Below are positions 306 to 34,313 of a stretch of 43,158 nucleotides of DNA, one piece after another (position 1 is the first letter of the stretch; each line of letters starts with the position of its first letter). The translations under genes were made by a program, and so were the position numbers. The DNA is taken from NCBI GenBank assembly GCA_022865705.1, contig JALHTG010000056.1:1-43158 (forward strand), read 5' to 3'. The DNA is from Candidatus Bathyarchaeota archaeon (GTDB taxonomy: Archaea > Thermoproteota > Bathyarchaeia > 40CM-2-53-6 > JALHTG01). The notes beneath the pieces are model-generated. The model did no database searches, was not told the DNA's origin, and worked only from the letters and a program-made list of their open reading frames with translations.

Positions 306-548
306 TCAATCACCATGTCTGTAGCGCGCGATATATAGCCGCGCGCGCTCGACTAGCGCGTGACCAACCACAACCATCAGGCCACCAAGAAAGCCTCGTT
401 CCGCACTCTCTGTAACTGTCATGGCGAAAATTGGACCAGGCGGAAGAGTAGCTGAGAGCCCTGCAAGGAAAGCCGCGAAGATGAATGAAGCGATAGCAAT
501 CTCCAAACTCTCTACCACGTAGACCAGAGATAATGCTGGCTTTAACAC
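306..548 (-). pseudogene. LysE/RhtB-family exporter, N-terminal remnant
   Basis: Remnant of an amino-acid exporter of the LysE family. The reading frame shows a first membrane helix followed by LAGLSATLPPGPIFAMTVTE and then GFLGGLMVVVGHALVE, which is the conserved family start through the second helix. The full protein is about 200 residues; here the similarity stops after GHALVE and the frame runs into the alternating GC tract at 341-348 and ends shortly after. A TATA-like box (549-558) upstream seems intact, so the fragment may still be transcribed into the downstream methyltransferase. The likely original start is a GTG near 518 rather than 548. The rest of the gene is not seen nearby. Clearly a broken gene; the mechanism is inferred. 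Confidence 0.8.
321..361. repeat. GC-alternating element cluster (three GCGCG blocks around a TATA-like core)
   Basis: Three blocks of alternating GC (324-330, 341-348 and 356-360) surround the A/T core ATATATA (331-337). The LysE remnant ends here and the methyltransferase starts just beyond, so the element marks the junction. A related arrangement occurs at 1474-1490, where GCGC and CGCG flank TATATA. The alternating purine-pyrimidine sequence is the type that forms Z-DNA easily (established physical property; not shown here). Confidence 0.8.
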
Positions 549-600
549 AATATATAAGACAAGTTCTGGCTGGCTATGAATGCAGACGTGAGGAATTGAA

Positions 601-1359
601 ATGGATGAGGAGATAGAAGCTACTTTGAGATCTCTTCACGCTCGAAATCTTGCAGGGTTATTCGCAGAAAACTCAGGGGATGCCAAGAACAAGATTCTGG
701 ACTTGATCCCTACAGATGCTTTAGTAGGTATAGGTGATTCCACAACGGTAGCGCAGATTGGCGTTAAGGATGAGTTGAGGAGAAGGGGAACAAGGGTTCT
801 AGATGGCTTCGATCGCAAAACGACCTACACCAGCCTCAAAGACTATGAAGAGCTCCATTACGTACCGGTCAGAGAGTCCACATTGTGTGACGTTTTCTTG
901 ACCGGTACAAACGCTGTCACTCAGGACGGTAGGCTTGTGAATGTGGATGCTGCGGGCAACAGGGTTGCTGGAATGTTTTGGGGTCACCCGGTGACAATCA
1001 TCGCTGTTGGCAGAAACAAGATAGTTAGGAACCTTGACGAGGCATTTCACCGCGTCCGGAAGGTCACCGCTCCCAACCACATAAGAATAAGAGCCATGGA
1101 ACTAGGACGGCGACGAGTTGAGACACCCTGCGTTATCACAGGTGACTGCAGTGACTGCAAGACAAAAGACAGGATGTGCAACGTCTTCACCATAATTGAG
1201 GGCAAGCCCCTTCGAACTCAAATCAAGGTAGTAATTGTGAACGAAGATTTGGGACTAGGTTGGGACGAGTCTTGGCCCCGCGAACGGACCGCCAAGATAA
1301 TCGAAAACTACAAGAAATTCGTTTGGATACCACCGCACGCCTTGCCAAGCGGCAGGTAA
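601..1359 (+). CDS. LUD domain protein (LutC/YkgG-like family)
   Basis: LUD (lactate utilisation, formerly DUF162) domain protein of 252 residues. Typical family segments are visible: VGIGDSTTVAQIG near the start of the domain, then CDVFLTGTNAVTQDGRLVNVDAAGNRVA and IIAVGRNKIVRNLDEA, with KVTAPNH before the C-terminal region. A C-terminal cluster of four cysteines (PCVITGDCSDC then DRMC) could bind metal. In bacteria LUD proteins work with Fe-S oxidoreductases in L-lactate oxidation, but no LutA/LutB partner is seen here, so the substrate is unknown. A diverged paralogue lies at 15316-16023 with the same cysteine pattern. Start chosen at ATG 601 with an A/G-rich leader (GAGGAATTGAA) just upstream. 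Confidence 0.88.
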   Translation: MDEEIEATLRSLHARNLAGLFAENSGDAKNKILDLIPTDALVGIGDSTTVAQIGVKDELRRRGTRVLDGFDRKTTYTSLKDYEELHYVPVRESTLCDVFLTGTNAVTQDGRLVNVDAAGNRVAGMFWGHPVTIIAVGRNKIVRNLDEAFHRVRKVTAPNHIRIRAMELGRRRVETPCVITGDCSDCKTKDRMCNVFTIIEGKPLRTQIKVVIVNEDLGLGWDESWPRERTAKIIENYKKFVWIPPHALPSGR

Positions 1360-1809
1360 ACGATTCAAAGTGGCATCGAGTTGCCAAAACAGCGACCAAG
1401 CAAAAAGTCCGAGGCATTCTTGTTTTCCTCCGCATCTTGGACTACGTCTGCTTCGAACCCGCGGCCGGCCGTGACGCGCATATATCGCGTTGAGACTGGC
1501 GTTGGAGAACATGTGCACGGAACCGTGAATGACTACAGCCACTAACCCATATTACAGACCTGAACCACGCAAACGAAAGCGCCGAACAAAGCAACTGCTG
1601 ATTTGATACTACCTTTGACGAACATAAAGCAGGCCATGAACACTAATCAATGTCGATTTTGCCGGCCGTACGGTGTGGAACTGAACGAATCGTTTCCGCA
1701 GACAGTAAATGGCTACATGCGCAGATTCACAAAGAATAGATCACAAGACAGCTAGCGTGCGCGCGCGAAAGATTCGAAAGGAAGGAAGATCAATACAAGG
1801 GAGGGCTTC
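1360..1809. other. Long intergenic region, no confident gene
   Basis: About 450 bases without a gene I can support. It holds a palindrome-like ACGCGCATATATCGCGT (1474-1490), a GC-alternating tract (1759-1767) and one short frame at 1636-1755 (39 residues, starts MNTNQCRFCRPYG, one CxxC pair) whose stop codon lies just before the GC tract. That short frame could be a further gene remnant, but nothing identifies it. Confidence 0.5.
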
Positions 1810-3207
1810 ATGAAAATAAGATTCCTGGGCGCAACGCGTCAAGTGACCGGATCAAGCTACTTTCTGGATGCCGGTGGAGTGAAGATCCTTGTCGATTGCG
1901 GCTTGTTTCAGGAGCGGGACTATTTCTACAGAAACTGGAAGGGATTCCCAGTTCCTCCAGACCAGATCCATTATCTCCTCCTCACTCATGTTCACCTGGA
2001 CCATTCCGGGCTTATCCCCAAGCTTGTCAGGGAAGGATTTGCCGGAGATATCCTCCTGACCTCTCCGTCCAAAGAGATGTTTCCGATCGTGATTTTGGAT
2101 TCTGCCCGAATCCAGGAAGAAGATGCCGCCTACAAGAAAAGACGCCATGATAAGGAAGGTCGAAAAGGACCCTACCCCAAAATACCTCTGTATACAGTCC
2201 AGGATGCCGAGAAGTGTTTTTCCCTTCTGAAGGATGTTCCCTATGAAGACCATCTTCCGTTGAATGACCGAGTCAAGGTCTGTTTCCACGATGCCGGCCA
2301 CATCCTTGGCTCGGCCATGATTGAGATCATTGTCCAAGATGAGAACAGGTCACAGAACATCATCTTTTCTGGGGATATCGGCCAGTGGGATAAGCCTCTT
2401 CTCAGCAACCCCTCTGTTTTTGATCGAGCGGATTATGTGGTCATGGAGTCCACCTACGGAAATCGCAACCATGAGAAACCCCAAGAGGTGGATGAAAAAC
2501 TCTGCAAGGTCGTCAACGACACGGTAAAGGCAGGCGGGAATGTCGTCATCCCCACCTTCGCTATCGAGCGTGCCCAAGAGCTGTTGTATCACTTTAACCG
2601 CTTAGCGAGTGCGGAAAGGATCCCTTATGTTATGACCTTTCTCGACAGCCCCATGGCTGTCGAAATCACGAAAGTCTTCGAACAATGCAAAAAGTATCTT
2701 GCCAAAGAGACACTCGAGCTCTTCAAGGATGGTCAATCCCCCTTTGACTTTCCGGCGTTGAAGCTCGTCGAATCCGTTGAAGCGTCCAAGGCGATCAACC
2801 TGATCAGAGGGTCAACCATCATCATGGCCGGTTCCGGAATGATAATGGGTGGACGTATCAAGCATCACCTAGTCAGCAATATAGCTCGCCCAGAATCGGC
2901 GCTTCTTTTTGTGGGGTACCAAGCGTTTGGGACGCTGGGACGCCAAATCTTGGACGGCGTCTCTCCGGTCAGAATCCACGGACAGTCCTATCCGGTGCGG
3001 ATGAAGATTGAAAAGATCGACGGGTTTTCCGCCCACGCCGGCATGAACGACCTGATACGCTGGCTGAACAGCTTCAAATCTCCGCCAAAGCATGTTTTCC
3101 TGACCCATGGCGAAGATGAGTCGATCTTGAGCTTAACGGACTATCTCCATTCCAAGGACGGATGGGAAGTGAGCGCGCCGGCATACATGGAAGAATATGA
3201 TCTCTGA
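1810..3207 (+). CDS. MBL-fold beta-CASP RNA-processing nuclease
   Basis: Metallo-beta-lactamase-fold hydrolase with a beta-CASP insertion, the family of RNA endo/exonucleases that includes CPSF73 and bacterial YSH1-like proteins. Zinc motif HVHLDH sits at residues 60-65, followed by GHILGSAMIEI (motif III), a motif IV aspartate in FSGDIG, YGNR, and the beta-CASP segments GSGMIMGGRIKHHL, FSAHAG and LTHGE. Length 465 is normal for the single-domain form without KH domains, so it is not the archaeal KH-containing aCPSF1. Start ATG 1810 has a strong ribosome site (GGGAGGG) a few bases upstream. It stands alone, with the AMP phosphorylase remnant following on the same strand. Confidence 0.92.
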   Translation: MKIRFLGATRQVTGSSYFLDAGGVKILVDCGLFQERDYFYRNWKGFPVPPDQIHYLLLTHVHLDHSGLIPKLVREGFAGDILLTSPSKEMFPIVILDSARIQEEDAAYKKRRHDKEGRKGPYPKIPLYTVQDAEKCFSLLKDVPYEDHLPLNDRVKVCFHDAGHILGSAMIEIIVQDENRSQNIIFSGDIGQWDKPLLSNPSVFDRADYVVMESTYGNRNHEKPQEVDEKLCKVVNDTVKAGGNVVIPTFAIERAQELLYHFNRLASAERIPYVMTFLDSPMAVEITKVFEQCKKYLAKETLELFKDGQSPFDFPALKLVESVEASKAINLIRGSTIIMAGSGMIMGGRIKHHLVSNIARPESALLFVGYQAFGTLGRQILDGVSPVRIHGQSYPVRMKIEKIDGFSAHAGMNDLIRWLNSFKSPPKHVFLTHGEDESILSLTDYLHSKDGWEVSAPAYMEEYDL

Positions 3208-3266
3208 CTCTGAGGATTACCTATGAGATAAATGGCAATGATTTCACTGTGCTACTGGTGGATGGA

Positions 3267-3674
3267 ATGAAGCTGAGATTGAAACGAATTGGCATAGACA
3301 CTCACAGAGAAAACATCGCTTTCTTGGCCTACGACGACCTAACCGGTCGTGCACTTGGTCTTCACCCGATGGATAGAATTGAGGTCTCAGCCAACGAACG
3401 AAGCCTCGTCGCTGTTCTTAACATAGTAGAGGGAAGCGTAATGCCGGTAGGCACAATCGGCCTAAGCAATGCGGCTTTCGGCAAGCTCGGAGTAAATGAC
3501 AACTCATTAGTGGAGGTGGCGCCGGCAGAGGAGCCAGCATCACTTGACTTGCTCTATAACAAGATAGCTGGGAAGCAGCTTACTTCGCATGATTTTGGAG
3601 GAATCGTCGACGATATTGTCCAAGGAAGATATTCGAAAGTTGAGTTGACCGCGTTCGTAGTCAGCGCGCGCTGA
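3267..3674 (+). pseudogene. AMP phosphorylase (archaeal DeoA type), N-terminal remnant
   Basis: N-terminal part of an archaeal AMP phosphorylase / thymidine phosphorylase-like enzyme, which in the complete form feeds AMP into the type III RuBisCO nucleotide pathway. Residues run MKLRLKRIGIDTH, LGLHPMDRIEV, GTIGLSNAAFGKLGV, VEVAPAEEP and end at DDIVQGRYSKVELTAFVVSA. The ELTAF segment is followed in intact members by about 350 residues holding the catalytic domain; here the frame meets TCAGCGCGCGCTGA and its TGA closes the frame. The fragment therefore lacks the active site. An in-frame start further upstream (3249) is possible but the family starts at MKL. The missing domain is not visible nearby. 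Confidence 0.85.
3661..3674. repeat. GC-alternating palindrome TCAGCGCGCGCTGA
   Basis: Perfect 14-base palindrome. Its last three bases form the stop codon that ends the broken AMP phosphorylase frame. Same core as the elements at 13648-13657, 30476-30485 and 33574-33583. Confidence 0.85.
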
Positions 3675-3732
3675 TTGCGTGTATGATATCGTATGTATGT
3701 ATTGTCGGGTTCCCTACTCTCTACTCTACTAC

Positions 3733-4059
3733 TCAACTACTCTCCAGCTCCTTCTGGCCGGAAACCTGCTGGATGTGTTCGGTCGGGATGTGGATGAAGA
3801 CCCCGTTCTCAAACTTGATGTCCAGAAACACGTTCTTCATCGCCCTAGCGTACTGATACATGGTTGCGGGCGCGAGATTCATCTGCAAGCAAAGCTCGCC
3901 CAAGGGAACAGCCTTCTCACGTATGATCCGGGCCATCTGGTTCAGTCGAGCCATCAAGTCTGTTCTCATGTTCTCATCGCGCGCGGCAAGTTCCTGCTCA
4001 ACCTCTTCCGCCACCCTGTGAAGCTCCCCAAGACGCCTAAGGTCGGGATGGAAACGCAT
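3733..4059 (-). CDS. Small helix-turn-helix protein
   Basis: 108-residue protein of unknown role. The N-terminal half is a charged, probably helical segment (MRFHPDLRRLGELHRVAEEV), the middle EKAVPLGELCLQMNLAPATMYQYARAMK looks like a helix-turn-helix, and the C-terminus ends in FENGVFIHIPTEHIQQV. It is likely a DNA-binding protein (inference from the motif). Its coding sequence holds one GCGCGC word, one of only three inside well-supported genes in the window. It converges on the AMP phosphorylase remnant, with 58 bases between the two stop codons. Confidence 0.6.
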   Translation of the reverse strand: MRFHPDLRRLGELHRVAEEVEQELAARDENMRTDLMARLNQMARIIREKAVPLGELCLQMNLAPATMYQYARAMKNVFLDIKFENGVFIHIPTEHIQQVSGQKELESS

Positions 4060-4167
4060 AGCGTCTATGACTAGCTGGTGCAGGGTGGATCCATACCTGA
4101 ACTTCCGGCCTTCCCCTGGCTACTGGTGTCTTCTAGGCTTCCAAATTATCATTAATTTGCCAATTAC

Positions 4168-4194
4168 TTCAAAACTGAGGTTTTGGAGCGTTTC
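4168..4194. repeat. Short direct repeat, copy 1 (TTCAAAACTGAGGTTTTGG)
   Basis: Pairs with 4362-4388. Each copy has TTCAAAA and TTTTGAA/TTTTGGA arms around a six-base centre, so it is an inverted repeat as well as a direct repeat. Spacing between copies is 194 bases. Could be operator sites or the ends of a decayed longer repeat. Confidence 0.55.
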
Positions 4195-4361
4195 AAGGCT
4201 GAATTCTGTCGCTTTTGGCTCCGACCTAGCCAGTTTTTCAGGCGGTATTTTCAATCAGTTCTGCCCTCTATCACGGCTATTTCCGTAGTACCCAGATACT
4301 TATTTCCCGTCCAGACGCGCCTTTTCGCGCGCTTTCCGAATTCCACACTTTTTGCGATTGG

Positions 4362-4388
4362 TTCAAAACTGATCTTTTGAAGTGTTTC
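4362..4388. repeat. Short direct repeat, copy 2 (TTCAAAACTGATCTTTTGAA)
   Basis: Second copy of the element at 4168-4194, with perfect seven-base inverted arms. The bases that follow (TTTCCGCCGTGATTTCAGC) weakly resemble the longer repeat at 6314-6480. Confidence 0.55.
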
Positions 4389-4552
4389 CGCCGTGATTTC
4401 AGCTTCTTCTAGCGCGGGAGCGACAGGTTTCCACACCCACGACGCGCGCGCTTACCCCTGCATAACCCATTTGATGATTGATCAGAGAATAGTGCTGCAA
4501 TCCTGCAACTAGTTCTGGCGTGCGCCAAATATACGCCTGCAGGAGGATAGGT

Positions 4553-4978
4553 ATGGTGTGCTTAGTGTCGGTGTCAAGGATGCCGGGCTTCGTAATCGAC
4601 TCGATGAGTATACCTGGGGTGAAAGTGCCTGTTCCGAACGAACGTGTTCTCAAGATCGTGATGTCTCCTGAGCTTGGCAATCACAAGGAGATCACGCTCC
4701 TCCTCTCCGTAATCAGCCCGCACAGCCAGACGGGCCTCCACACCCACGACTCCGATGAGATCATGTACGTGGCAACAGGTGAAGGCGAATCAACTATGGA
4801 CGGGAAAACGGAGAAGATACGGCCAAACACCGTCATATTCGCTCCAAAGAGCGTTCAACATGAGATTCGAAGCACGAGTGACGAGAGTTTGAAACGCGTC
4901 TGCCTGTACATTCCTCCCCTAAAACCCACAGGATACTTCCTAGAAGCCATATCCGCGGCGAAAAAAGAGCGAACCTAG
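4553..4978 (+). CDS. Cupin domain protein
   Basis: Single-domain cupin of 141 residues. The first cupin motif is HTHDSDEIMYVATGEGES (metal-binding His, His and Glu), and the second is PNTVIFAPKSVQHEIRS with its His. Such small cupins bind a metal and act as isomerases, dioxygenases or sensors; the substrate cannot be told from sequence. Start ATG 4553 is chosen because GGAGGATAGGT precedes it directly; an in-frame ATG at 4580 is an alternative. A GC element (ACGCGCGT, 4984-4991) follows the stop by six bases. Confidence 0.8.
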   Translation: MVCLVSVSRMPGFVIDSMSIPGVKVPVPNERVLKIVMSPELGNHKEITLLLSVISPHSQTGLHTHDSDEIMYVATGEGESTMDGKTEKIRPNTVIFAPKSVQHEIRSTSDESLKRVCLYIPPLKPTGYFLEAISAAKKERT

Positions 4979-5018
4979 CAACAACGCGCGTGCTACAGTA
5001 GAATTGAGGGGATCCCCT

Positions 5019-5036
5019 GTTATACAGTTGTATAAC
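5019..5036. promoter_or_regulatory. Inverted repeat GTTATACA-GT-TGTATAAC
   Basis: Perfect eight-base arms with a two-base centre, the geometry of a dimeric regulator's operator. It lies between the cupin stop and the HTH gene at 5350-5706, whose product is a candidate ligand (inference only). Confidence 0.55.
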
Positions 5037-5089
5037 CCCCCCAGTTTCAATAGACCTATGGTAGAATCGAAAGCAGAGGGGGTGGGGGG

Positions 5090-5111
5090 TGTGGCCACAA
5101 CTGTGGCCACA
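5090..5111. repeat. Tandem palindromes TGTGGCCACA x2
   Basis: Two identical ten-base palindromes separated by AC (12-base period). Could be paired binding sites on nearly the same DNA face, or a hairpin. No similar pair was found elsewhere in the window. Confidence 0.6.
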
Positions 5112-5150
5112 TTTCACCTCATCATACGCACACGCCATCTCATGGATTAC

Positions 5151-5310
5151 TTGAAATCAAACCCAAAACGATGAAAACTAGTGATTTCTGCCTTGATCTA
5201 CGCCTTTTCCAACGGGCACTTGCAAGAAAAATAGGTGGGACCCACCCTCCTTTCTATCTCAACCTGTTCACGGCGCGGTTCCGTCTAGCAGGCGGACGCT
5301 GTGGAATCGG
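5151..5310. repeat. Long diverged non-coding repeat, copy A
   Basis: Resembles 6314-6480 along about 160 bases, including AAACCCAAA-CGATGAAA, GATTTC-GCCTTGATCT, GCAAGAAAA and CACCCTCCTTTCTATC. It carries the palindrome GGTGGGACCCACC; the matching place in copy B has a different palindrome (GGGTGT/ACACCC), so pairing is kept while the bases changed. That points to a structured RNA or a protein-bound repeat. Confidence 0.65.
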
Positions 5311-5349
5311 CCGACGTCAAGTCACAGCCCCAAGCGCACGCGTGGTGAC

Positions 5350-5706
5350 TCAACTGACTGTACTAACAGGGATCTTCTGCTTTCCTTCTTGTTTCGCTAT
5401 CTGGAAGGAAGTCTCTTTCACGCTCTCGTTTAGCATCTTGACCATAGGGTGGCTTCTGTCTATTCGGTACATAATCGCCCTTCCTATATTTCTTGAAATC
5501 TTGACGATGCCCATGTCTTCCAGGTCGTTGAAGTTCTTGTAGACTGTTTGCTTGCTCATTCCAAGTTCTCTAGCCAGCTCTTCCTTGTTGAAATCGAAAT
5601 ACGGGTTGGTTAGGAAAATGTCTATTATCCGCAGTTTCGGAGAGTAGCCAAACGCCTTGAGCAGGAGCGAGTCTCCTGTATCTTTGTATCTAGCTTCCAT
5701 TTCCAT
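5350..5706 (-). CDS. Winged-helix transcriptional regulator
   Basis: 118-residue ArsR/MarR-type winged-helix DNA-binding protein. LRIIDIFLTNPYFDFNKEELARELGMSKQTVYKNFNDLEDMGIVKISR is a clear winged HTH, followed by the wing (IGRAIMYRIDRSHPMV) and a C-terminal helix with lysines. No cysteine or metal motif is seen, so the signal is unknown. ATG 5706 is preferred over the GTG at 5709. It is divergent from the small HTH gene starting at 5770; the shared region 5707-5769 holds an A/T-rich stretch (AAATACTT on the reverse strand) that can serve as its TATA box. Confidence 0.8.
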   Translation of the reverse strand: MEMEARYKDTGDSLLLKAFGYSPKLRIIDIFLTNPYFDFNKEELARELGMSKQTVYKNFNDLEDMGIVKISRNIGRAIMYRIDRSHPMVKMLNESVKETSFQIAKQEGKQKIPVSTVS

Positions 5707-5769
5707 CACTGGAATGGATTGGTTAGAAAAGTATTTATTCTTTTACCTTTAAAGTTCCGTGACAGTACG

Positions 5770-6036
5770 ATGATCCTGAGCGACGATCAGGTCAAAGTTG
5801 CGATACTTGAGTTCCTGGTAATGAAAGGCAGATGGGGCGCTCACTACTTCCCTATTGATACCCTCGTAAACTGGATGGGGAGAAAAATCGAACGAAACGG
5901 CAGGAGAGTCAGGGCATGCTTGAAAGAACTGGCCAAACAAGGCTACGTGTTGACGCACAAACGAGGAGAAGCAACCTCTCTGAATTCTGCAGTTGCTCAG
6001 AAGATCAGAGAGCTAATCGGAAGAACTTCCAGCTGA
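5770..6036 (+). CDS. Small winged-helix protein
   Basis: 88-residue protein reading MILSDDQVKVAILEFLVMKGRWGAHYFPIDTL, then GRRVRACLKELAKQGYVLTHKRGEATSLN. The spacing of helices and the basic wing-like GEATSLN suggest a compact winged-helix DNA-binding protein. The frame is open upstream, but ATG 5770 gives a normal start. Its neighbour on the left is divergent. Its 3' end overlaps a small reverse-strand frame (6005-6169) by about 32 bases. Function unknown. Confidence 0.65.
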   Translation: MILSDDQVKVAILEFLVMKGRWGAHYFPIDTLVNWMGRKIERNGRRVRACLKELAKQGYVLTHKRGEATSLNSAVAQKIRELIGRTSS

Positions 6037-8452: not shown

Positions 8453-8926
8453 ATGCTCTTATGGGCGTCTTTCCTTCAGTCACCAATAGTGTGCGCGTTG
8501 AGGTTTGTCCTAGGGCAACTAGAGCATCAGTCTTTCTTGTGGAGACTTCGACTTATGAGGATCGAAGTGAGCAAAGCAAAGGGGATGAAGGCAGCTGTCA
8601 AAAGGGTTGCCGACTCATGCAGCGTGGTTTCGAATACGATCCTCGCCATCTCGGTGAGGTAGAAGGTGAGGACCAAGACCTCCAGCTTGTGGAGAATCTC
8701 CTGCAGGTTCACCAGCCGGACGAGCTGGCGCGCGCAAAACGTTCCGATGGGGAGTGGCTAGGTCTAAACGAGAAGGGACCTTAGGCTGGTACTGACCAAG
8801 TTTCTGCCACCTATTGCGGATAATCGGGGAACATGGGATTGTGATGGGGTGTATATTCTCCAACAGCGCGCTACTACGTCGTGAGGATTCTAATACAACG
8901 TGCAAAGAACTAGACGGTGGAACCAT
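8453..8926. other. Intergenic region with a membrane-protein remnant and two GC elements
   Basis: Between the M29-like gene and the ZIP gene. It contains the reverse-strand C-terminal fragment at 8527-8727, the GC-alternating tract 8728-8735 at its broken edge, and the palindrome AGCGCGCT (8865-8872). The 130 bases between the two GC sites have open frames on both strands but none was recognised. Confidence 0.5.
8527..8727 (-). pseudogene. C-terminal remnant of an unidentified membrane protein
   Basis: The reverse strand reads QLVRLVNLQEILHK, then LEVLVLTFYLTEMARIVFE and LLTAAFIPFALLTSILISRSLHKKD before its stop. The two hydrophobic stretches look like a pair of membrane helices ending in a basic tail, typical of the C-terminus of a longer protein. 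There is no start codon with a leader: the coding-like sequence begins directly at the alternating GC tract 8728-8735. I read it as a 5'-truncated gene. The family was not recognised; an intact small membrane protein starting at GTG 8712 is the alternative. Confidence 0.55.
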
Positions 8927-9673
8927 ATGAATCTGGCATTCGAACCGTTTCTCCTGAGCCTAGTCGCTGGGATGGCGACCGGGATCGGCGGCGTAATCGC
9001 CCTCTTCCTTGGAAAGCTGAGCGACCGAGTTGCGGGCTTCTCACTGGGATTTGCCTCCGGTGTGATGCTTCTCGTCTCCTTCAACAACCTCTTCCTAGAG
9101 GCCGTAAAACTGCTCACGCACTTTGAGTTGATCACCGTGTTCTCTCTAGGAGCGGTCACCATGGTCGTGCTGGATTTGTCGATTCCACACATTGAACTAA
9201 CGGCGAGAAGGGAAGGAGGAAACGCGAAGATGCTCCGAGCAGGAATGCTGATAGCAATAGGCATAACCCTCCACAACCTCCCTGAAGGACTAATTGTCAC
9301 AGCAGGCTACGCATACATGCCAAGACTCGGCTTGATAATTGCGATCGCCATAATGCTTCACAACATACCGGAAGGAATCGCCACAGCCATCCCTCTGATG
9401 GCGGCAGGGACGAAGCCCAGCAAGATTGCGACTCTCACATTCCTCTCAGGGTTAGCTGAACCGGCCGCAGCTTTGATCGGAGTCTTCGTCTTCTCTCTCT
9501 TGAACCTGAGCATAATAGGCTACTCGCTCGCCTTCGCAGCAGGAGTGATGACCTACATCACGGCTGATGAGCTGATCCCCGTGGCGCACGAGTACGGACA
9601 CAAACACACGGTCTCCGTAGCCCTATTACTGGGAATAATCTTCGCCTTACTGGTCGACGTCATTGTCAGCTAG
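8927..9673 (+). CDS. ZIP-family divalent metal transporter
   Basis: Zinc/iron permease of the ZIP family, moving divalent metal ions into the cytoplasm. 248 residues with about eight hydrophobic helices; the two signature segments HNLPEG (in helix 4) and HNIPEG (in helix 5) that form the binuclear metal site are both present, and ADELIPVAHEYGH near the C-terminus fits GufA/ZupT-like members. Start ATG 8927 is chosen over an upstream in-frame codon (8900) because the helix-forming part begins at MNLAFEPFLLSLVAG. The stop is followed by a variant GC element (GCTAGCGCACGCTA). Single gene, no regulator adjacent. Confidence 0.92.
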   Translation: MNLAFEPFLLSLVAGMATGIGGVIALFLGKLSDRVAGFSLGFASGVMLLVSFNNLFLEAVKLLTHFELITVFSLGAVTMVVLDLSIPHIELTARREGGNAKMLRAGMLIAIGITLHNLPEGLIVTAGYAYMPRLGLIIAIAIMLHNIPEGIATAIPLMAAGTKPSKIATLTFLSGLAEPAAALIGVFVFSLLNLSIIGYSLAFAAGVMTYITADELIPVAHEYGHKHTVSVALLLGIIFALLVDVIVS

Positions 9674-9705
9674 GCTAGCGCACGCTACCCTGAAGAAGTA
9701 GCGGC

Positions 9706-9948: not shown

Positions 9949-10071
9949 GCCGACACACCACGCCTAAACTATCTAGATCTTCGTACATATTATAGGGCGC
10001 GCCTGAAAGCTCCGAAGAAGAAATACGAACAGCAACCAAGCTGCCTGAGTCATCATCAAACAATTCATCGA

Positions 10072-10125
10072 GAGTAGCGAAGGACTGAAGACTGCGCATA
10101 CGTCTATTGATATACTTGATGTGAA
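10072..10125 (+). promoter_or_regulatory. Orphan promoter copy, cut off at a GC element
   Basis: About 54 bases here match the promoter region of the coiled-coil gene (11739-11793): both read GAAGGACTGAAGACTG, then TCTATTGATATACTT and a GTGA stretch. In the other copy the TATA-like GATATACT stands about 27 bases before an ATG. Here the similarity ends and GCGCGCG (10126-10132) follows, with no gene on this strand. I read it as the relic of a duplicated promoter whose gene has been removed. Confidence 0.55.
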
Positions 10126-10142
10126 GCGCGCGGTCTAATAGG

Positions 10143-11685: not shown

Positions 11686-11738
11686 AGCTGTCCGTGCAGT
11701 TGCTTTTCTTGCGTGGAGGTGGCCACTTCGCGTGCCAG

Positions 11739-11793
11739 AGCAGAGAAGGACTGAAGACTGGGCATGCATCTATTGATATACTTTGAATGTGAG
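11739..11793 (+). promoter_or_regulatory. Promoter of the coiled-coil gene; second copy of a repeat
   Basis: Matches 10072-10125. GATATACT (11775-11782) is centred about 27 bases before the ATG at 11805, so the transcript should be leaderless. The conserved part reaches more than 30 bases upstream of the TATA box, more than a core promoter alone needs, which suggests recent duplication or a bound regulator. Confidence 0.6.
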
Positions 11794-12695: not shown

Positions 12696-12703
12696 GCGCG
12701 CGC
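12696..12703. repeat. GC-alternating element between convergent genes
   Basis: GCGCGCGC four bases after the coiled-coil stop codon, filling most of the short gap to the next gene's stop. Confidence 0.7.
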
Positions 12704-12709
12704 AATATT

Positions 12710-13030
12710 TCATTGCGTGACTTTGTCGATCTGCATGTGGATGATGTCGTTGATTCCTGGTCTGCCGAGTTGTTGATATTCCTCTTCTGTGATCTGCATG
12801 TCTATTCTGGCGTCCCACTGTGGACCACTGGGAGCGCCACCGACGATCACGGCCCCAGGAAAAGCTGTCCCCATCGCCTGTTGCACCTGAGAAGCTATGC
12901 TCTGCGCCATCCTCTGCTCTTCAGTCTGACTGATCGGCTCTATCCTAGTCTTGAGGCCACGCCTAACAAGCAGTAGACGAACCATGCCGTCCCCAAGACT
13001 CATCACCTGATTGACTTTCAACTCAAGCAT
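12710..13030 (-). CDS. Arcadin-1-like small protein
   Basis: 106 residues from ATG 13030: MLELKVNQVMSLGDGMVRLLLVRRG, then TEEQRMAQSIASQVQQAM, and a C-terminal ITEEEYQQLGRPGINDIIHMQIDKV. The last segment resembles the end of arcadin-1, a protein encoded with crenactin in TACK archaea and thought to belong to its cytoskeleton system; the likeness is from memory and weak. A longer reading from TTG 13204 is possible, but the added residues look unlike the rest. It lies downstream of a JAMM protease gene on the same strand with about 200 bases between. No actin homologue is seen in the window. Confidence 0.55.
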   Translation of the reverse strand: MLELKVNQVMSLGDGMVRLLLVRRGLKTRIEPISQTEEQRMAQSIASQVQQAMGTAFPGAVIVGGAPSGPQWDARIDMQITEEEYQQLGRPGINDIIHMQIDKVTQ

Positions 13031-13226
13031 CAATCGAATCACACTGTCGGATTTGACACTTCCTGTATAGTCTCCGGCCAAGATAAGTCTCTCGAAAAGA
13101 AGACCAGCGCGTACGACACTTAGCGACTGAATGCTGTCGGACCATGCATGCTTTCTTCGATCAAATGAACAGACTGAACAGAATGCAAGGTTCTTTTCGC
13201 CCAAATGATTCTTTCTGATCGAGCTT

Positions 13227-13639: not shown

Positions 13640-13738
13640 CTAATCAAAGCGCGCGCTGTTCAGCAGACTGAGGTATATTTGACTTTGATCCTCAGAGAAA
13701 CCAATAGACTTCAGAAGCTCTTGTGTTTCTTCCGTCAT
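13640..13738 (-). pseudogene. TrmB-family regulator, N-terminal remnant
   Basis: 32-residue reverse-strand frame: MTEETQELLKSIGFSEDQ, then SQIYLSLLNSA before it meets AGCGCGCGCT (13648-13657) and stops. This is the typical first helix pair of the TrmB winged-helix domain (LKxxGLSExExxIYxxLL), which in complete regulators continues with the recognition helix and a sugar-binding domain to about 250 residues. Everything after the first helix pair is missing, and the break coincides with the GC palindrome. Too short to act as a regulator. The family call is from the helix pattern and is fairly strong. Confidence 0.7.
13648..13657. repeat. GC palindrome AGCGCGCGCT at TrmB break
   Basis: Perfect ten-base palindrome that ends the TrmB-like similarity. 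A second GC element (AGCGCGC, 13791-13797) lies on the other side of the fragment, so the remnant is bracketed by two of them. Confidence 0.75.
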
Positions 13739-13802
13739 TTTCTTCTACCAGTATACACCCAGAAGCACTTGCGATAGAAGGATTCAAACAAGCGCGCAAG
13801 CT

Positions 13803-28428: not shown

Positions 28429-29154
28429 TCACTCCAGAAGTATTTTGAAGGCAACGTGCCAATATAGTTTATCGTGAAACTCCTCGAATTCGTGGACCAT
28501 CTGCCGGAGTTTTTCTTCACTTTTCTTCACTTCATCCCACGCAAGAATGTTCTGATAGGCCCGTCTAGGGCAATCACGCATTCGAAATTCCCTGAAGCTT
28601 GACTCAAAAGCCTCAATGATCTCTTCCTTCTTCATTTTCACTACGTCATTGTATAGAAGCGCGTTCTGGGCAAACTTCAAGGTCTGACCCAATGCTGTCT
28701 TTGCCTTCTCCTCTAGTGGTAGGCTATCTTTTCTCCGATCCCATTGATCCTTCAAGTCGTGCATTGTTTTGATGCTTGTCGTCTTGTGAAGGTCGGGCAG
28801 GGGGGCTTTCTCGACGATGGATTCTCCGTATATTGTTCTTGCCGATAGGGTTTCCCATATGGTTGGAACGCTCAGCAGTAGAGATTTTCCGAAAACCCAT
28901 GACTCATGTATCTCTACACCAGTCTTCTTTGCAACTGTCTCCTTTATGTTTCTCAGCAGCATGTAGTCTTGCGGGCCTCGTGCGTGATCTTCCATTACTA
29001 GCATTACGTCTATGTCGCTGAATCCTGGCACATGGTCTTCAACTGAGGTGCTTCCGTACAGAATTACACTCGTCAACCGTTTTCCAAAGTTCTTCTTGCA
29101 CAACTCAACCAGTAGGTTGGTCGCTTTATCGTACCTATCTTTGAGGGAACGCAT
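28429..29154 (-). CDS. Nucleotidyltransferase domain protein
   Basis: 241-residue protein with a Pol beta-type nucleotidyltransferase domain: VILYGSTSVEDHV then GFSDIDVMLV (the GS...DxD motif with metal-binding Asp). The C-terminal half (KTMHDLKDQWDRRKDSLPLEEKAKTALGQTLKFAQNAL) is helical like HEPN or kanamycin-transferase-type partners. It could modify RNA, proteins or small molecules; no antitoxin-type neighbour is seen. Low similarity to named enzymes was recognised. Confidence 0.78.
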   Translation of the reverse strand: MRSLKDRYDKATNLLVELCKKNFGKRLTSVILYGSTSVEDHVPGFSDIDVMLVMEDHARGPQDYMLLRNIKETVAKKTGVEIHESWVFGKSLLLSVPTIWETLSARTIYGESIVEKAPLPDLHKTTSIKTMHDLKDQWDRRKDSLPLEEKAKTALGQTLKFAQNALLYNDVVKMKKEEIIEAFESSFREFRMRDCPRRAYQNILAWDEVKKSEEKLRQMVHEFEEFHDKLYWHVAFKILLE

Positions 29155-29247
29155 CGCTGTTCTCTCTGGCCTCTAACGGTCAGTTTTCCATGTCGAACTC
29201 ATGTGTTTCCTTTGCAATGTCTAAGAACAAGTCATGTTCGACCTTGT

Positions 29248-30069
29248 CTAAAGCTTCAACGCCTGTACAAGCCTTTCCCTACTGAACTGAAGGTAAGTCC
29301 TATCTTGTGAGAAGACCTCGAGCGTGATCGTTTCGTCATATCCAATGTTTCTTACCTCTTGCAGGATTCTCGCGAAGTCTATTATTCCAGCTCCCAACGG
29401 GAGATGCAAATCACCGTAGCCTCCTAGGTTATCTGAGAGATGAATGTGGCCGAGTCTGTCACGGAATCTTCGCAGGTATTCAAAGGAACTGTTCTGGTGT
29501 TTCCCTATGTTGGCATGACCGATATCCAACGTGAACCCGAGATCTGGCACCTGATCAAAAAGCTCTTCGAAGTCAGTCATCGTAAACATCTCCTCGTCTA
29601 GGTTCTCAATCAACACCTTACATCCCAAATCTCTTGCAGTCGCAACGAAGATGTTCGCAGCTTCCCCGAATTCCTTCAGGGCCCTTTTTCCATCAATCAT
29701 ATGCGTCCCAGCTGTTAGCATAGGTGGGTGGACAGTGATTTTCCTGATTCCCAGTTCGTGGCACATTTCAATGGCCCTCTCAATCTGCTTCCCATGGACC
29801 TGCGCAATGCCTATCGATTGATGGTATGGAAAAAAGAATGATTGATGATACGGATGTCCCAGCTCGAAGCGCCATGGAACATGACCTAACAGCTCGATGC
29901 CGAGTGATTCAGCGCTGTTGACAATTTCCCGTTTGATTCTACCGAGAATTTCCATAGACGTCTTAGGTTTCTCGACCGTCAATTCCACATAATCAAAACC
30001 CAGAGAGGAAAGCGACTGCAACTCTGCCAGTATGTCTTCAGAAGGAGAGTTCATCGCTCCGAATTTCAC
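29248..30069 (-). CDS. Sugar phosphate isomerase/epimerase-like TIM barrel
   Basis: 273-residue TIM-barrel protein of the xylose isomerase-like/AP endonuclease 2 superfamily. Landmarks: SLGFDYVELTVEKP, LGHVPWRFELG, KITVHPPMLTAG, VLIENLDEEMFTM (metal Glu), LGFTLDIGHANI, LGHIHLSDNLGGYGDLHLPLGAGIIDF and ITLEVFS. Probably acts on a sugar or keto acid; a DNA-repair role is less likely because the overall length and the GDLHLPLG loop match the isomerase side. Transcribed alone. Confidence 0.85.
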   Translation of the reverse strand: MKFGAMNSPSEDILAELQSLSSLGFDYVELTVEKPKTSMEILGRIKREIVNSAESLGIELLGHVPWRFELGHPYHQSFFFPYHQSIGIAQVHGKQIERAIEMCHELGIRKITVHPPMLTAGTHMIDGKRALKEFGEAANIFVATARDLGCKVLIENLDEEMFTMTDFEELFDQVPDLGFTLDIGHANIGKHQNSSFEYLRRFRDRLGHIHLSDNLGGYGDLHLPLGAGIIDFARILQEVRNIGYDETITLEVFSQDRTYLQFSRERLVQALKL

Positions 30070-30244
30070 AATCGATCACCTACCCCGGCCACCTAGCTTG
30101 TCCCGCGGGCTATGACAGCGCTTCGAGTTGCCAGGGGACACATTCCAAACAAGAAGGTTTGAATCATTTTCTCACGTTTATCCGCGTCCGTCGAAGCAGC
30201 GTTCGACCAGCATACTCAATACATTTTCCCGAAGAATACAAAGC

Positions 30245-30300
30245 GCCGGCCGGATCATGGTTTTCTGATCTTTGACCGTAGATCAGTCTGTCCGGCCAGC
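30245..30300. other. Nested hairpin between the isomerase and the zinc-ribbon gene
   Basis: Outer stem GCCGGCCGGA (30245-30254) pairs with TCCGGCCAGC (30291-30300) except at one position; inner stem CTGATCT (30265-30271) pairs with AGATCAG (30280-30286), loop of eight bases. Two stems of ten and seven base pairs separated by an asymmetric internal loop suggest a structured RNA or a strong terminator; no run of T follows it. Confidence 0.5.
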
Positions 30301-30322
30301 ACGCGTGCATTTCTTATGCCCT

Positions 30323-30421
30323 TTACATTAGTTCTCTGCAATATGGGCATCGATAGGGAGGATTCAAGTCATACGCGACAATCTTTCCGCACTTGGGGCA
30401 TTTCGTCTCCGGCATAGACAT
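30323..30421 (-). CDS. Zinc-ribbon microprotein (32 aa)
   Basis: Reverse-strand frame of 32 residues: MSMPETKCPKCGKIVAYDLN, then PPYRCPYCRELM. Two CxxC pairs (CPKC and CPYC) spaced as in a zinc ribbon indicate one zinc site. The protein is far shorter than usual annotation limits. It may bind nucleic acid or another protein. It is divergent from the Nudix gene, with a GC palindrome (30476-30485) between the two. A similar but unrelated 38-residue zinc ribbon lies at 33590-33706. Confidence 0.75.
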   Translation of the reverse strand: MSMPETKCPKCGKIVAYDLNPPYRCPYCRELM

Positions 30422-30559
30422 TCACCTCGTGACAAAGCTGGTTCTTTTCGGTCAAATTAAGCTTTCTCTGAGGACAGCGCGCGCTCAGGAAGACTTGTGG
30501 TGCTTGCTGATCTGATAGATCTCTTATAGGTTTCACTGAATCATGATTCTGGTATCGGG

Positions 30560-31048
30560 ATGGTCTGCGTGGACAAAGAGCCGGAATATCCAACTGGCCC
30601 ATTTACGATCGGAGTAAGCGGCGTAGCGGTTGATCAAAACAAGGTTCTCCTCGTACGGATTATGTACGGTCACCGCGGATGGATGCTGCCCGGTGGGTAT
30701 GCGAAGTCGAACGAAACAATCGGAGAAGCCATTAAACGGGAGATGCTGGAAGAAACGGGGCTTATCGTCGAACCGTTGGAATTAGTGTCTGTGCGTAGCC
30801 GAGTCAGAGACCGCAGAAACGACATCTACGTAACATTCAAAGTGAAGGTCTTAGGAGGAGAATTGAGGCCCGACGGCAAGGAGATCGCTGAAGCAAAGTA
30901 CTTCACTGTGGCCGAGATGGAGAACAGAGAGGATGTTCCGAAGCTCAATCTGGAGATCGCTCGTCACGTATTTGACGGCGAGAAATCGCACTTCACATTG
31001 TCAGGCTACAGGCCTGCTCCGGATGAAATGTACGAGCTTTGGCTCTAG
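30560..31048 (+). CDS. Nudix hydrolase
   Basis: 162-residue Nudix protein. The Nudix box GX5EX7REUXEEXGU is complete (Gly46 to Leu68: GYAKSNE...REMLEETGL), so it should cleave a nucleoside diphosphate-linked compound with Mg2+. The substrate is not known. The stop codon TAG (31046-31048) overlaps the GC element AGCGCGCGC (31047-31055), and an MFS remnant begins about 20 bases after that, suggesting the gene's original downstream neighbour was replaced. Confidence 0.9.
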   Translation: MVCVDKEPEYPTGPFTIGVSGVAVDQNKVLLVRIMYGHRGWMLPGGYAKSNETIGEAIKREMLEETGLIVEPLELVSVRSRVRDRRNDIYVTFKVKVLGGELRPDGKEIAEAKYFTVAEMENREDVPKLNLEIARHVFDGEKSHFTLSGYRPAPDEMYELWL

Positions 31049-31076
31049 CGCGCGCAGGTTCCATAGTGTCTCTTAG

Positions 31077-31358
31077 CCAATCTTTTCAAGAATCTCTTCG
31101 GAATCTTTCCTTTTGTTTTCTCTTCAACAATCGTTGCTCATGGGCTTGGTGGCCAAAGACGAAAGAGGCGCTGCGTCAGGAATCAATGCCACGCTTTGGA
31201 GACTACCAAATTCTCTAAGCACCGCAATCGGAGCCGGCTTGATGGAGGCCGGCTTCTTGGCGACACCGTTCTACCTTGCGACACTTCTCTACATCGTTTC
31301 CATAGCTGCTTTCTGGTTCTTCTTCAACAAGGCGAGATTGCCTGACGAAATGCGATAG
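31077..31358 (+). pseudogene. MFS transporter, C-terminal remnant
   Basis: C-terminal end of a major facilitator transporter: open frame from 31077, PIFSRISSESF, QQSLLMGLVAKDERGAASGINATLWRLPNSLSTAIG, then helices LMEAGFLATPFYLATLLYIVSIAAFWFFF and stop. The RGAASGINATLWRLPN segment is the conserved loop of the second half of drug/sugar MFS proteins; at least eight helices are missing in front. The frame begins about 20 bases after GCGCGCGC (31048-31055) following the Nudix stop. It is probably not functional. Confidence 0.75.
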
Positions 31359-31434
31359 AGGCCCATTGAGAGAAGGCACGCCTTCAACTCTGTGATAACG
31401 TATATAGCTACCGCAGAAGAGAAAAGCGACATAC

Positions 31435-31444
31435 GCTTATTAGA
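31435..31444 (+). promoter_or_regulatory. TATA box of the KaiC-like gene
   Basis: GCTTATTAGA, centred about 27 bases before ATG 31466: a leaderless promoter, downstream of the MFS remnant. Confidence 0.5.
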
Positions 31445-31465
31445 TCTCAAGGCGAGAAGCCAACT

Positions 31466-32887
31466 ATGATCGAACGTTTACCTACTGGAGTTGACGGTCT
31501 AGATCCTTTGATCGGAGGGGGTATTCCAAGAGGAAGCCTTATTCTGCTTGCTGGAGAGCCTGGAACTGGCAAGACGCTGTTTGCATCAAGATTTCTTTGT
31601 CGGGGCGCCACTCGATATGGCGAAAACGGCATCTACGTCTCATTTTTGGAAGGAAAGGAGACGCTCATTGCGAATCTCTCTGGATTCTGCGATCAAGACC
31701 ATGCTAAGCTTGACAAGGATGGAAAGTTTAGGATTCTTGATCTTGTGGCAACGAAAGAAGGCGGCATCTCAGCTACTCTGGAGATAATCTTGGATGAGAT
31801 ACATGCGCTCAAGGCTAAGCGACTTGTCATAGATTCTTTCTCAGCCATGGCTCAAGCCTTCAAGGAGCCCATAGACGCCAGAATTGTACTGCACACAATT
31901 CTAAGCTACATGGTCAGGCAGGCCGGGTGTACAACCCTACTCATAGTTGAGACGCCGACTGGAACGAAAGGCTTGGGGCTGGGCATGGAAGAGTTTGTGG
32001 CTGACGGTGTCATTGTTCTCGGGAGAAGAAAGATTGCGGGTAGGTTGGTCAGGAAACTGGAAATCATCAAACTCCGAGGAACCAGGATAGACACACCTAG
32101 TCACCCGTTCACATTGGAAGGGGGACCCACGGTCATTCCCCCATTCTCACACGAATCATTAGGACAGCTGAAGAGGATGGAGCATGTCCCTGATTCTGAT
32201 GGCCATTTCTCTACTGGAAACAGATCGCTTGACAAGATACTTGGAGGGTTCCCGAAGGGATCCTTGGTGCTTCTCGAAGCAGGTGAGGCAGTTCCCCTGT
32301 CAGCCTATGGTTTTCTGACATATCCCATTGTTGCGAATTTTCTGAACGCCAAATCTCCGCTTGTTGGAATACAGTCTTTGGGAGCTGACCCAGCGATGAC
32401 CTATGAGAGATGGAAGGCTGTTGCGGGAGAGAATGCGGCATATGGTAGATCTGTTGGGAGACTACGGTTTGGTGCAGAAGAGCAGAGGCCTTACTTGGTC
32501 TCTCTGAGGAGCGAGAGGCCTGAGGAGAGAATGGCAGAGTACTTGGAGGCAGGGGCTAGGCTGAGGGAGCAAACTGGGAAGCCCGTCCTATGGTGGGTTG
32601 CCCTAGATCACTTTGTCGACATCTTTGGCGCTGAATATGCTGAGAGGGCGTTGAGTGAGCTATCGATGAATGTCATCCGCAACAGAGAACTCGCGGTAGC
32701 ACTTGCAAAACCTGGATTGGGGGATATCACAAGAAGCGCCAGCAATGTCGCGGCGATTCATCTTCGCGTATTTGACAGAGATGGAGGCGTTCTTCTGTAC
32801 GGAGTGAAGCCCAGAACTCCCTTATACGCCATGACGGTTGATGTTGAAAAAGGAGCAAGTTCCGTTTCTTTCACTTCCATGGTATAG
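31466..32887 (+). CDS. KaiC-like RecA-superfamily ATPase, second domain degenerate
   Basis: 473-residue archaeal KaiC-type protein with two RecA-like domains. Domain 1: Walker A GEPGTGKT (residues 30-37), Walker B RLVIDSFS, and the KaiC segment GLGLGMEEFVADGVIVL plus KLRGTRIDTPSHPF. Domain 2 starts at STGNRSLDKILGGFPKGS, but its Walker A place reads LLEAGEAVPLSA and cannot bind ATP; the Walker B-like VLWWVALDHFV is kept. Such proteins work as ATP-dependent signalling switches. It is followed 34 bases later by a NitrOD5-like gene in the same direction, the usual partner type of archaeal KaiC systems. Confidence 0.9.
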   Translation: MIERLPTGVDGLDPLIGGGIPRGSLILLAGEPGTGKTLFASRFLCRGATRYGENGIYVSFLEGKETLIANLSGFCDQDHAKLDKDGKFRILDLVATKEGGISATLEIILDEIHALKAKRLVIDSFSAMAQAFKEPIDARIVLHTILSYMVRQAGCTTLLIVETPTGTKGLGLGMEEFVADGVIVLGRRKIAGRLVRKLEIIKLRGTRIDTPSHPFTLEGGPTVIPPFSHESLGQLKRMEHVPDSDGHFSTGNRSLDKILGGFPKGSLVLLEAGEAVPLSAYGFLTYPIVANFLNAKSPLVGIQSLGADPAMTYERWKAVAGENAAYGRSVGRLRFGAEEQRPYLVSLRSERPEERMAEYLEAGARLREQTGKPVLWWVALDHFVDIFGAEYAERALSELSMNVIRNRELAVALAKPGLGDITRSASNVAAIHLRVFDRDGGVLLYGVKPRTPLYAMTVDVEKGASSVSFTSMV

Positions 32888-32921
32888 CTTGATCCACGAT
32901 TTGATGGATTGACTCGGCGGG

Positions 32922-33233
32922 TTGGTGGAATCGATTAAGGATGATTTCAAGAGGGCTCTGTTGGAGGCAGTTGACGAGGGGCTTCTTCTCATGGGTGAAG
33001 GCTCTAGACATGTGATCTACTATCATGCTGAGAGAAGCCATCATGTGAAACGTGAGGAGATTCCCGAGAAGTATGAAGCCTTCCACGAGGGTCTACAGGC
33101 GCTTCTAGGGACAGGGGCCAAGGTTCCTGAGAAACTGATCGCCAAGAAGCTCTACAACAAGCTTGGCTTGAGCTTCATAGACGGCAAGAACTGGACACTG
33201 GTCGACTATATCAAACACGCAAAGAGAACCTAG
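32922..33233 (+). CDS. NitrOD5-like output domain protein
   Basis: 103-residue protein: LEAVDEGLLLMGEGSRHVIYYHAERSHHVKREEIPEKYEAFHEGLQALLGTGAKVPEKLIAKKLYNKLGLSF. This pattern fits the NitrOD5 output domain described in thaumarchaeal signalling proteins (recognised from memory). It sits just after the KaiC-like ATPase, so it is probably its output partner or a sensor of the same switch. GTG or ATG starts near 32922 are possible; the one used lies close to GGCGGGTTGG. Confidence 0.75.
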   Translation: MVESIKDDFKRALLEAVDEGLLLMGEGSRHVIYYHAERSHHVKREEIPEKYEAFHEGLQALLGTGAKVPEKLIAKKLYNKLGLSFIDGKNWTLVDYIKHAKRT

Positions 33234-33347
33234 CCTGTTCGAGCGTGCTCTGTCAACGAATTCCTCTCAAACCTGTTTCTGGCCTGGAGCAAGCTTCTGA
33301 CTCAATTCATATATCTCACACGAACCGTATGAAACCGTCGAGAGGTA

Positions 33348-33539
33348 ATGGGCCAAGAAAGACTGTGCGAGATATTGGGAACCGCAGGGAGTATCTGGTT
33401 TTCAGTCAGCTTGTTCCTCTTCATTGTTTCGCCGAGCGATAGGTTGTCCCTCTTCTGGATGATTAATATTGCAGTTGGCACAGTCTTTTTTCTTCTGGCC
33501 GGAGTCTGGAAGAAGAGACTCCGCAAAACAACAAGCTAG
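33348..33539 (+). CDS. Small two-helix membrane protein
   Basis: 63 residues: short polar N-terminus (MGQERLCEILGTAG), helix IWFSVSLFLFIVSPS, helix LFWMINIAVGTVFFLLAGVW and a basic tail KKRLRKTTS. GAGAGGTA precedes the ATG at 33348 as a ribosome site. No family recognised. It lies downstream of the KaiC/NitrOD5 pair in the same direction. Confidence 0.6.
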   Translation: MGQERLCEILGTAGSIWFSVSLFLFIVSPSDRLSLFWMINIAVGTVFFLLAGVWKKRLRKTTS

Positions 33540-33573
33540 GGAAGCAGAGCCAAGCCCCGTACTGAGGGAGCGT

Positions 33574-33583
33574 AGCGCGCGCT
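33574..33583. repeat. GC palindrome AGCGCGCGCT
   Basis: Perfect ten-base palindrome between the small membrane protein gene and the zinc-ribbon gene, a few bases from the latter's stop codon. Confidence 0.75.
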
Positions 33584-33589
33584 TAGCGC

Positions 33590-33706
33590 TTACCAGTTCA
33601 ATGTCGATCTTCTCAGTCTGACGTTGCAGTACGGGCACGTGGACTGGTATTCAGAGAACTGAATTCTACATTTAGGGCAGTAATAGGCCATTGCAAGGTC
33701 GTTCAT
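33590..33706 (-). CDS. Zinc-ribbon microprotein (38 aa)
   Basis: Reverse-strand frame of 38 residues: MNDLAMAYYCPKCRIQF, then SEYQSTCPYCNVRLRRSTLNW. Two CxxC pairs (CPKC and CPYC) make one zinc site. An in-frame ATG at 33718 could add four residues. Downstream of the stop is AGCGCGCGCT (33574-33583) and upstream, after about 75 bases, another GC element (33793-33798), so this small gene is bracketed by the elements. Function unknown; compare the 32-residue protein at 30323-30421. Confidence 0.75.
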   Translation of the reverse strand: MNDLAMAYYCPKCRIQFSEYQSTCPYCNVRLRRSTLNW

Positions 33707-33861
33707 ACGGGTGCGCATCGAGTATTTAGATTAGAGAAGCACTTTCTACGAACTGGGTTCCCCAACGCAATTAATCCGAAGCCGTCAGACGTGCGCGCTG
33801 CTGGATAGTCAGCCGGAACGATAGTTATTGCCCATTACGAACATCCGCAATAAGCTCGAAT

Positions 33862-33869
33862 AGCGCGCG
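33862..33869. repeat. GC-alternating element at Lon break
   Basis: AGCGCGCG overlapping the stop codon TAG (33861-33863) that ends the upstream reading in this frame; the Lon similarity begins immediately after it. Confidence 0.75.
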
Positions 33870-34313
33870 AATGTAACAAGACTCTCCATGATGAACACGG
33901 ATGTCATAGTCACTGTGACAGCTGACTGGAGTGTTGAGCCGGTTGATGGACCGAGCGCCGGGGCCGCAATTACATTGGCAATAATAGCAGCAGTTAGAAA
34001 CCAGACTCTTCGAAAAGACGTCTTCGTGTCCAGAACAATCAATCCCAATCAGACCATAGGGCCGGTCGGAGGATTGGAGTACAAGGCTGTGGCAGCAGCG
34101 GAGAAAGGTGCGGCAATATTTCTTGTTCCCAAGGGACAAAGCGTGGTGACTGTGTACAAGCCTGTTGAACTGACCTCTACCCAAGGCGTGAGAGTAATCG
34201 CTTACGAAATCACGAAGGTTGATTTGGAGAGCCTGCTCAAAGAACGTGGCTACCGAGTCACTGTTGCAGAGGTCTCAACTATCCAAGAGGCTTATTTCAT
34301 CTTCACAAAGTAA
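33864..34313 (+). pseudogene. Lon-type S16 serine protease domain, C-terminal remnant
   Basis: The frame opens right after a stop inside TAGCGCGCG (33861-33869) and reads NVTRLSMMNTDVIVTVTA, then PVDGPSAGAAITLAIIAAVRNQTLRKDVFVSRTINPNQTIGPVGGLEYKAVAAAEKGAAIFLVPKGQ. This is the S16 (Lon) proteolytic domain with its catalytic Ser in DGPSAGA and Lys in GLEYKA. Related archaeal proteins are several hundred residues long with a preceding domain and sometimes a membrane helix. The missing part would begin exactly at the GC element. The domain itself could still fold; an ATG at 33888 exists but has no ribosome site. Another GC element (34330-34337) follows the stop by 17 bases. Confidence 0.8.

Follow-up and report, generated by a model that had tools for sequence, protein, structure and literature searches.

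A short GC palindrome marks DNA joints and gene breaks in a Bathyarchaeota genome

Why do several gene remnants of one archaeal contig end or begin beside the same short GC run? To answer this question, we analyzed a window of 43,158 nucleotides, which is contig C30 of the 2.17-Mb, 117-contig genome of its source archaeon, Candidatus Bathyarchaeota (Bathyarchaeia; G000). The window contains 50 copies of the hexamer GCGCGC where 7.1 are expected, a 7-fold excess that was reached by none of 100 shuffled sequences. A first-pass annotation of this DNA had proposed that gene remnants break at these GC elements and named seven such breaks. Five of the seven hold within a few bases, and the MFS break fails. 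The features that enter the argument are listed below by window position, with the elements given without strand.

341-348: element GCGCGCGC, end of the LysE remnant
352-599, minus strand: LysE N-terminal remnant, Pfam LysE positions 2-37 of 193
3267-3665, plus strand: AMP phosphorylase N-terminal remnant, profile positions 2-129 of 500
3664-3671: element GCGCGCGC, joining the AMP phosphorylase remnant to block 3669-3850
8728-8735: element, start of a C-terminal membrane-protein-like reading frame (8548-8730, minus strand)
9678-9685: degenerate element GCGCACGC, right end of the ZIP-type transporter block 8886-9677
10071-10125, plus strand: partial copy of a promoter region, 89% identical to 11737-11783, ending at the element at 10126
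10126-10132: element GCGCGCG, end of the promoter copy
12696-12703: element GCGCGCGC, left end of block 12702-13074
13649-13656: element GCGCGCGC, broken end of the TrmB piece
13657-13784, minus strand: TrmB N-terminus (27 residues) with upstream DNA, 88% copy of the intact TrmB at C90:23074-23201
13792-13797: element GCGCGC, 8 bp past the other end of the TrmB piece
30477-30484: element common to the paralogous zinc-ribbon block C19:5933-6094; the DNA beyond differs
33575-33582: element common to the paralogous zinc-ribbon block C108:7626-7784; the DNA beyond differs
33863-33868: element GCGCGC(G), broken N-terminal side of the Lon-like remnant
33869-34328, plus strand: Lon-like S16 protease C-terminal remnant, 74% DNA identity to the intact C8:6083-6542
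34330-34337: element GCGCGCGC, right end of the Lon-like block
43019-43158, plus strand: GCGCGCGC, then one end of an IS1182/IS5-like insertion sequence (IS) with the terminal repeat GCGCGCCAGCTTCTTGC, 100% common to other contig ends

The Pfam homology of LysE stops at the element, and a methyltransferase block (1-337), which has a 93% identical copy on contig C16, ends 3 bp from the same element. The homology of AMP phosphorylase ends at base 3665, inside the element that joins it to block 3669-3850, which C107:62696-62877 matches at 96% identity. On C107, only the opposite end of the copy has an element, so that this most recent pair shows reciprocal truncations with elements at opposite ends. 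With the intact C90 paralogue as the reference, the TrmB break lies exactly at 13657, beside its element. The Lon-like piece matches the intact C8 gene and halts exactly at the elements on both sides; upstream of 33869, where the DNA alignment ends, a tblastn extension of the homology is weak and contains stops. For the promoter copy, identity reaches to about 8 bp from 10126, or to about 0–1 bp when a one-base indel is allowed. The MFS break had been placed about 20 bases after 31055, but the homology begins only at 31122, which leaves 66 bp to the element. For the membrane-protein-like frame we found neither a family nor a paralogue.

Further block ends fall on elements outside the originally named set, at 337, 3669, 12702, 33574, and 30485. 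The ZIP-type block has an 84% copy at C46:1340-2136 and block 12702-13074 a 91% copy at C41:6553-6925, both without the element. The search for the missing parts recovered intact paralogues of TrmB, the Lon-like protease, and MFS; AMP phosphorylase also has an intact counterpart, on C111, but a divergent one. Where the pieces in the window break, the intact copies of TrmB and the Lon-like protease have no GCGCGC. The zinc-ribbon genes are small and have several partial or whole copies in the genome (C19, C65, C50; C108, C87), some of them adjoining an element.

We then considered how often breaks would meet elements by chance. The first 40 kb of the window, searched in two parts against its own genome, yielded about 20 paralogous blocks, and for 17 of their 41 ends an element is found no more than 10 bp away in one copy or both. 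Counting the window side only, 11 block ends lie within this distance against 3.1 expected for ends placed at random in non-coding DNA alone; none of 2,000 such placements reached 11, in agreement with the earlier judgment that chance placement is unlikely. A wider sample of G000 gave 16 of 85 duplicated-block ends within 5 bp of an element (4.1 expected). The same measure showed no excess (0/45) in a sample of G066, a relative of the same class whose genome is a single 1.98-Mb contig. Breaks in protein homology, called with a reference set of 1126 proteins, lie within 10 bp of an element in 7 of 165 cases in G000 (1.5 expected, 0/500 randomizations), in 4 of 130 in G066 (0.8 expected, p 0.004), and in none of 123 in the element-less G010; these counts are lower bounds, diluted by the ends of conserved domains. 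The element marks DNA joints.

The element is a real, genome-wide phenomenon of G000 with a bias to non-coding DNA. We sampled about one quarter of the G000 genome and one fifth of that of G066, with genes called by a simple codon model. In 527 kb of G000, GCGCGCGC is 22-fold above its dinucleotide expectation, at a density of 0.703 per kb in non-coding against 0.027 per kb in coding DNA (about 26-fold). The corresponding ratio in G066 is 18-fold, and the word is nearly missing from G010. The elements often directly follow stop codons. Their full form is TA-(GC)4 or TA-(GC)5 followed by TA, a palindrome TA(GC)nTA, with no sequence conservation outside the flanking TA. The left and right halves vary independently in length and end base. 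When the GC run ends in C, the next base is T in 65–75% and then A in 44–57% of cases; runs ending in G show no such T/A preference, a pattern expected from trimming of each half. Core forms with one mismatch are about as frequent as the perfect core, with transitions in excess, and the element thus decays like neutral DNA. In bacterial genomes, (GC)n runs otherwise belong to the words whose absence is most often significant (PMC8034619), and no published description of a TA(GC)nTA element was found in the open-access literature.

To compare genomes, we counted AGCGCGCGC against its reversed control word. Among genomes of the same class, the counts are 169/29 in G000, 160/12 in G012, 84/9 in G008, 108/8 in G025, 55/6 in G019, and 282/32 in G066; others are also enriched, but most relatives show no such excess. 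Outside the class, one genus is enriched (G092, 144/13; G127, 45/3), of which G106 has none, and G261 shows a weaker enrichment (228/79). The presence of the element is patchy, even inside families and within one genus.

At the joints, homology reaches the element and stops there, and the intact partner mostly continues without GCGC. At L021:13196, for example, CTGTC is followed by GCGCGCGC where the intact copy has CTGTC followed by CGAAGC. The usual lack of GCGC in the intact partner indicates that the joint gained its tract, by addition or capture, as it formed. The TrmB piece, the Lon-like piece, and an IS fragment (L042:7170-7465) have elements at both ends, the IS fragment being bounded just as the gene pieces are. 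Fragment ends that already read GC or GCG are in excess in a small sample (5/14 against 1.1 expected, p 0.003), a sign of microhomology. Direct repeats of 4–7 bp around elements, as target duplications would leave, occur at the shuffled expectation in G000, G066, and G019. Unrelated pieces, including gene halves, promoters, and IS fragments, meet at the element. The window has just two clear cases of re-use of an element, at 30477 and 33575, in which the same piece and element are followed by other DNA. The modular shuffling envisaged by the first-pass annotation accordingly stands as a mosaic of gene and promoter pieces with bordering elements, produced by real rearrangements, but not as shuffling through pre-existing sites, since the partners are mostly element-free.

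The reading we prefer, to which we give a probability of roughly 0.5, is that each TA(GC)nTA is the scar of an illegitimate DNA joint, made by end joining that does not depend on Ku and in which a self-complementary GC tract bridges the ends. The mechanism, enzyme, and chemistry that we infer would run as follows. Double-strand ends would be joined by a Ku-independent pathway of the microhomology type. A short self-complementary tract, TA followed by GCGC and so on, would be added to, or bridged between, the 3′ ends and let two unrelated ends anneal. The ends would then be trimmed, a natural GC at the end being used if present. Fragments of the cell's own genome would be patched in and gene remnants left beside the scars, and selection would purge joints within needed genes, letting scars accumulate in non-coding DNA. 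A more far-reaching version is tentative and, in our view, doubtful: that some Thermoproteota possess a dedicated joining system, which caps or bridges broken ends with a fixed TA(GC)nTA linker, sews together unrelated genome fragments, and makes gene fragments and new junctions at a high rate.

Ku was found neither in G000 nor in 10 of 11 element-rich relatives, the exception being G070, and classical non-homologous end joining (NHEJ) is ruled out by its absence from G000, G066, and most other element-rich relatives. Ku is present in the f3 family, which is not element-enriched. The correlation is weak, since Ku is likewise missing from many element-poor genomes; the pattern excludes the classical pathway and does not prove an alternative one. 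Alternative end joining has been reported in Haloferax and Sulfolobus, and Pol theta is known to add nucleotides and thereby create microhomology (PMC8708640). The joints described here resemble those of Pol theta-type alternative end joining in their unrelated ends, 1–3 bp of microhomology, few added nucleotides, and independence from Ku. They differ in that the added tract is nearly constant, palindromic, and present in hundreds of copies per genome, and any Pol theta-like enzyme behind it is hypothetical. Several observations speak against the end-joining model: a constant tract is atypical of known untemplated additions, the GCGCGC ends of ISs in the same clade are left unexplained by it, two window joints share the element with different DNA beyond, and the block-end test in G066 was null. 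If the model is true, illegitimate joints would be labeled in the sequence and the history of genome rearrangement would be directly readable. A Ku-less end-joining pathway in uncultured archaea would become testable, and the unusually low coding density of these genomes (0.70–0.77 against 0.85 in an element-less relative) and the many gene remnants would be explained.

The main alternative to end joining, though a rather unlikely one, is that the elements are footprints of an IS family with GCGCGC terminal repeats: adjacent deletions would truncate genes, and a later deletion between the palindromic tips would remove the IS, with GCGCGC left behind. G000 contains a suitable multicopy IS with a DDE transposase of the IS1182/IS5-like type. 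Its full copy on C107 measures 1141 bp and has the 7-bp repeat GTTTGTA on both sides, and the right end of the window is an end of such an IS. One end of the IS recurs at six contig ends, and the other is common, at 100%, to at least three (C8, C10, and C19), suggesting that the G000 assembly is broken by an active-looking IS. The terminal repeats of the family, which occurs in G000, G012, G023, G068, and other Bathyarchaeota, begin with GCGCGCCAG, GCGCGAG, or GCGCGCTAG; the terminal hexamer is the scar sequence, and identical IS ends carry GC runs of 4–8, as variable as those of the solo elements. Against a footprint origin, the transposase (P0001) has no match in six element-rich genomes (G066, G008, G025, G015, G019, and G021), with other families of the same ends excluded only within a 420-kb sample of G066, and G023 has eight transposase matches but almost no elements. 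Solo elements have neither an IS interior nor target duplications and are abundant where the IS is not found, and in G066 no recurrent sequence lies beside the elements (two weak pairs among 318 flanks). Simple insertion and excision of an IS was rejected for the lack of target duplications and the mismatched IS distribution. Taken together, the absence of the IS from element-rich genomes, of target duplications, and of recurrent neighbors in G066 makes the IS alone insufficient to explain the elements. A coincidental sharing of the hexamer is nevertheless unlikely; the ISs may have borrowed the sequence, or the joining process may act on IS ends.

It is quite unlikely that the breaks result from recombination or a fragile site, i.e., from cassette-like exchange between pre-existing elements, through a recombinase or breakage at the GC palindrome. 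At 30323-30485 and 33574-33732, block and paralogue have the element in common and diverge beyond it, indicating some re-use of elements, and the three pieces with elements at both ends would also fit such exchange. In most joints, however, the partner is element-free, which rejects exchange solely at pre-existing elements, and a precisely recombined core would not show the variation in length and end base that the two halves have. Integron cassettes with attC sites are similarly modules bordered by a short recurrent sequence, whereas the element here is mostly missing from the parental sequence. No associated integrase, recombinase, or cassette structure was found, and neither an integrase-linked array nor an attC site was noticed beside the elements.

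The end-joining reading also has to be set against an ordinary intergenic signal, such as a terminator or a HIP1-like or REP-like palindrome, which would lie near remnants merely because remnants are non-coding. We regard this as highly improbable. The elements are indeed strongly non-coding and often stand just past stop codons, but the breaks match them to the base and above the non-coding null, the partners lack them, none occurs in conserved synteny, and they decay neutrally. HIP1 of cyanobacteria is likewise a short palindrome with hundreds of copies and a patchy presence among genomes. It is a fixed octamer and is present within genes too. The element, in contrast, marks joints, and its density in non-coding DNA is 18–26 times that in coding DNA. 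A MITE or REP repeat was rejected, as there is no conserved body past the TA and the flanks almost never recur.

Congeners provided a further comparison. Elements are missing at orthologous positions between congeners at three loci so far, which also speaks against an ordinary intergenic signal. In a comparison of G019 with G021 and G015 (90–94% identity), the species-specific non-coding DNA (13.7 kb) holds 25 elements and the non-coding DNA that aligns (3.6 kb) holds none; the chance of such a split is about 0.003 by simple proportion. Synteny of G019 ends exactly at the element at L153:4981 and also at the element at L157:9446, after which about 7 kb of extra DNA follow. This species-specific stretch (L157:9446-16473) lies between a gene stop codon and a tRNA gene that are adjacent in G021, with the element at its left border. 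Another species-specific block of G019 (L156:15416-18673, 3.26 kb) contains five elements inside, and its outer borders are not at elements.

A chimera of assembly, binning, or whole-genome amplification, which the first-pass annotation had held to be the main alternative, is scarcely credible even though G000 is a fragmented metagenome-assembled genome (MAG) of 117 contigs with 6.3% contamination, because element-marked breaks also occur on other contigs, in congeners, in G019, where synteny with a congener ends at an element, and in the separately assembled single contig of G066 and other relatives, the element is enriched in another class too (G092), elements decay by mutation, and joints occur at all paralogue divergences (74–96%).

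Several observations accompany these results. A tyrosine-recombinase-like frame (40715-41602) follows a glutamate-synthase-like cluster and precedes the AT-richer right end of the window; this region is possibly an integrated element. G000 also carries several diverged TATA-binding-protein-like paralogues with 73–84% DNA identity (L042:114-689, L042:7508-8122, L021:11283-11936, and L013:19297-19902). One element of G019 has an isolated C-terminal membrane-anchor tail, LEILTPYLALTGLIVAVSAVVVVKRR, immediately after it (L156:18355-18462), and the same tail has many copies in G012. Short sorting tails of this kind may be spread by the same joints.
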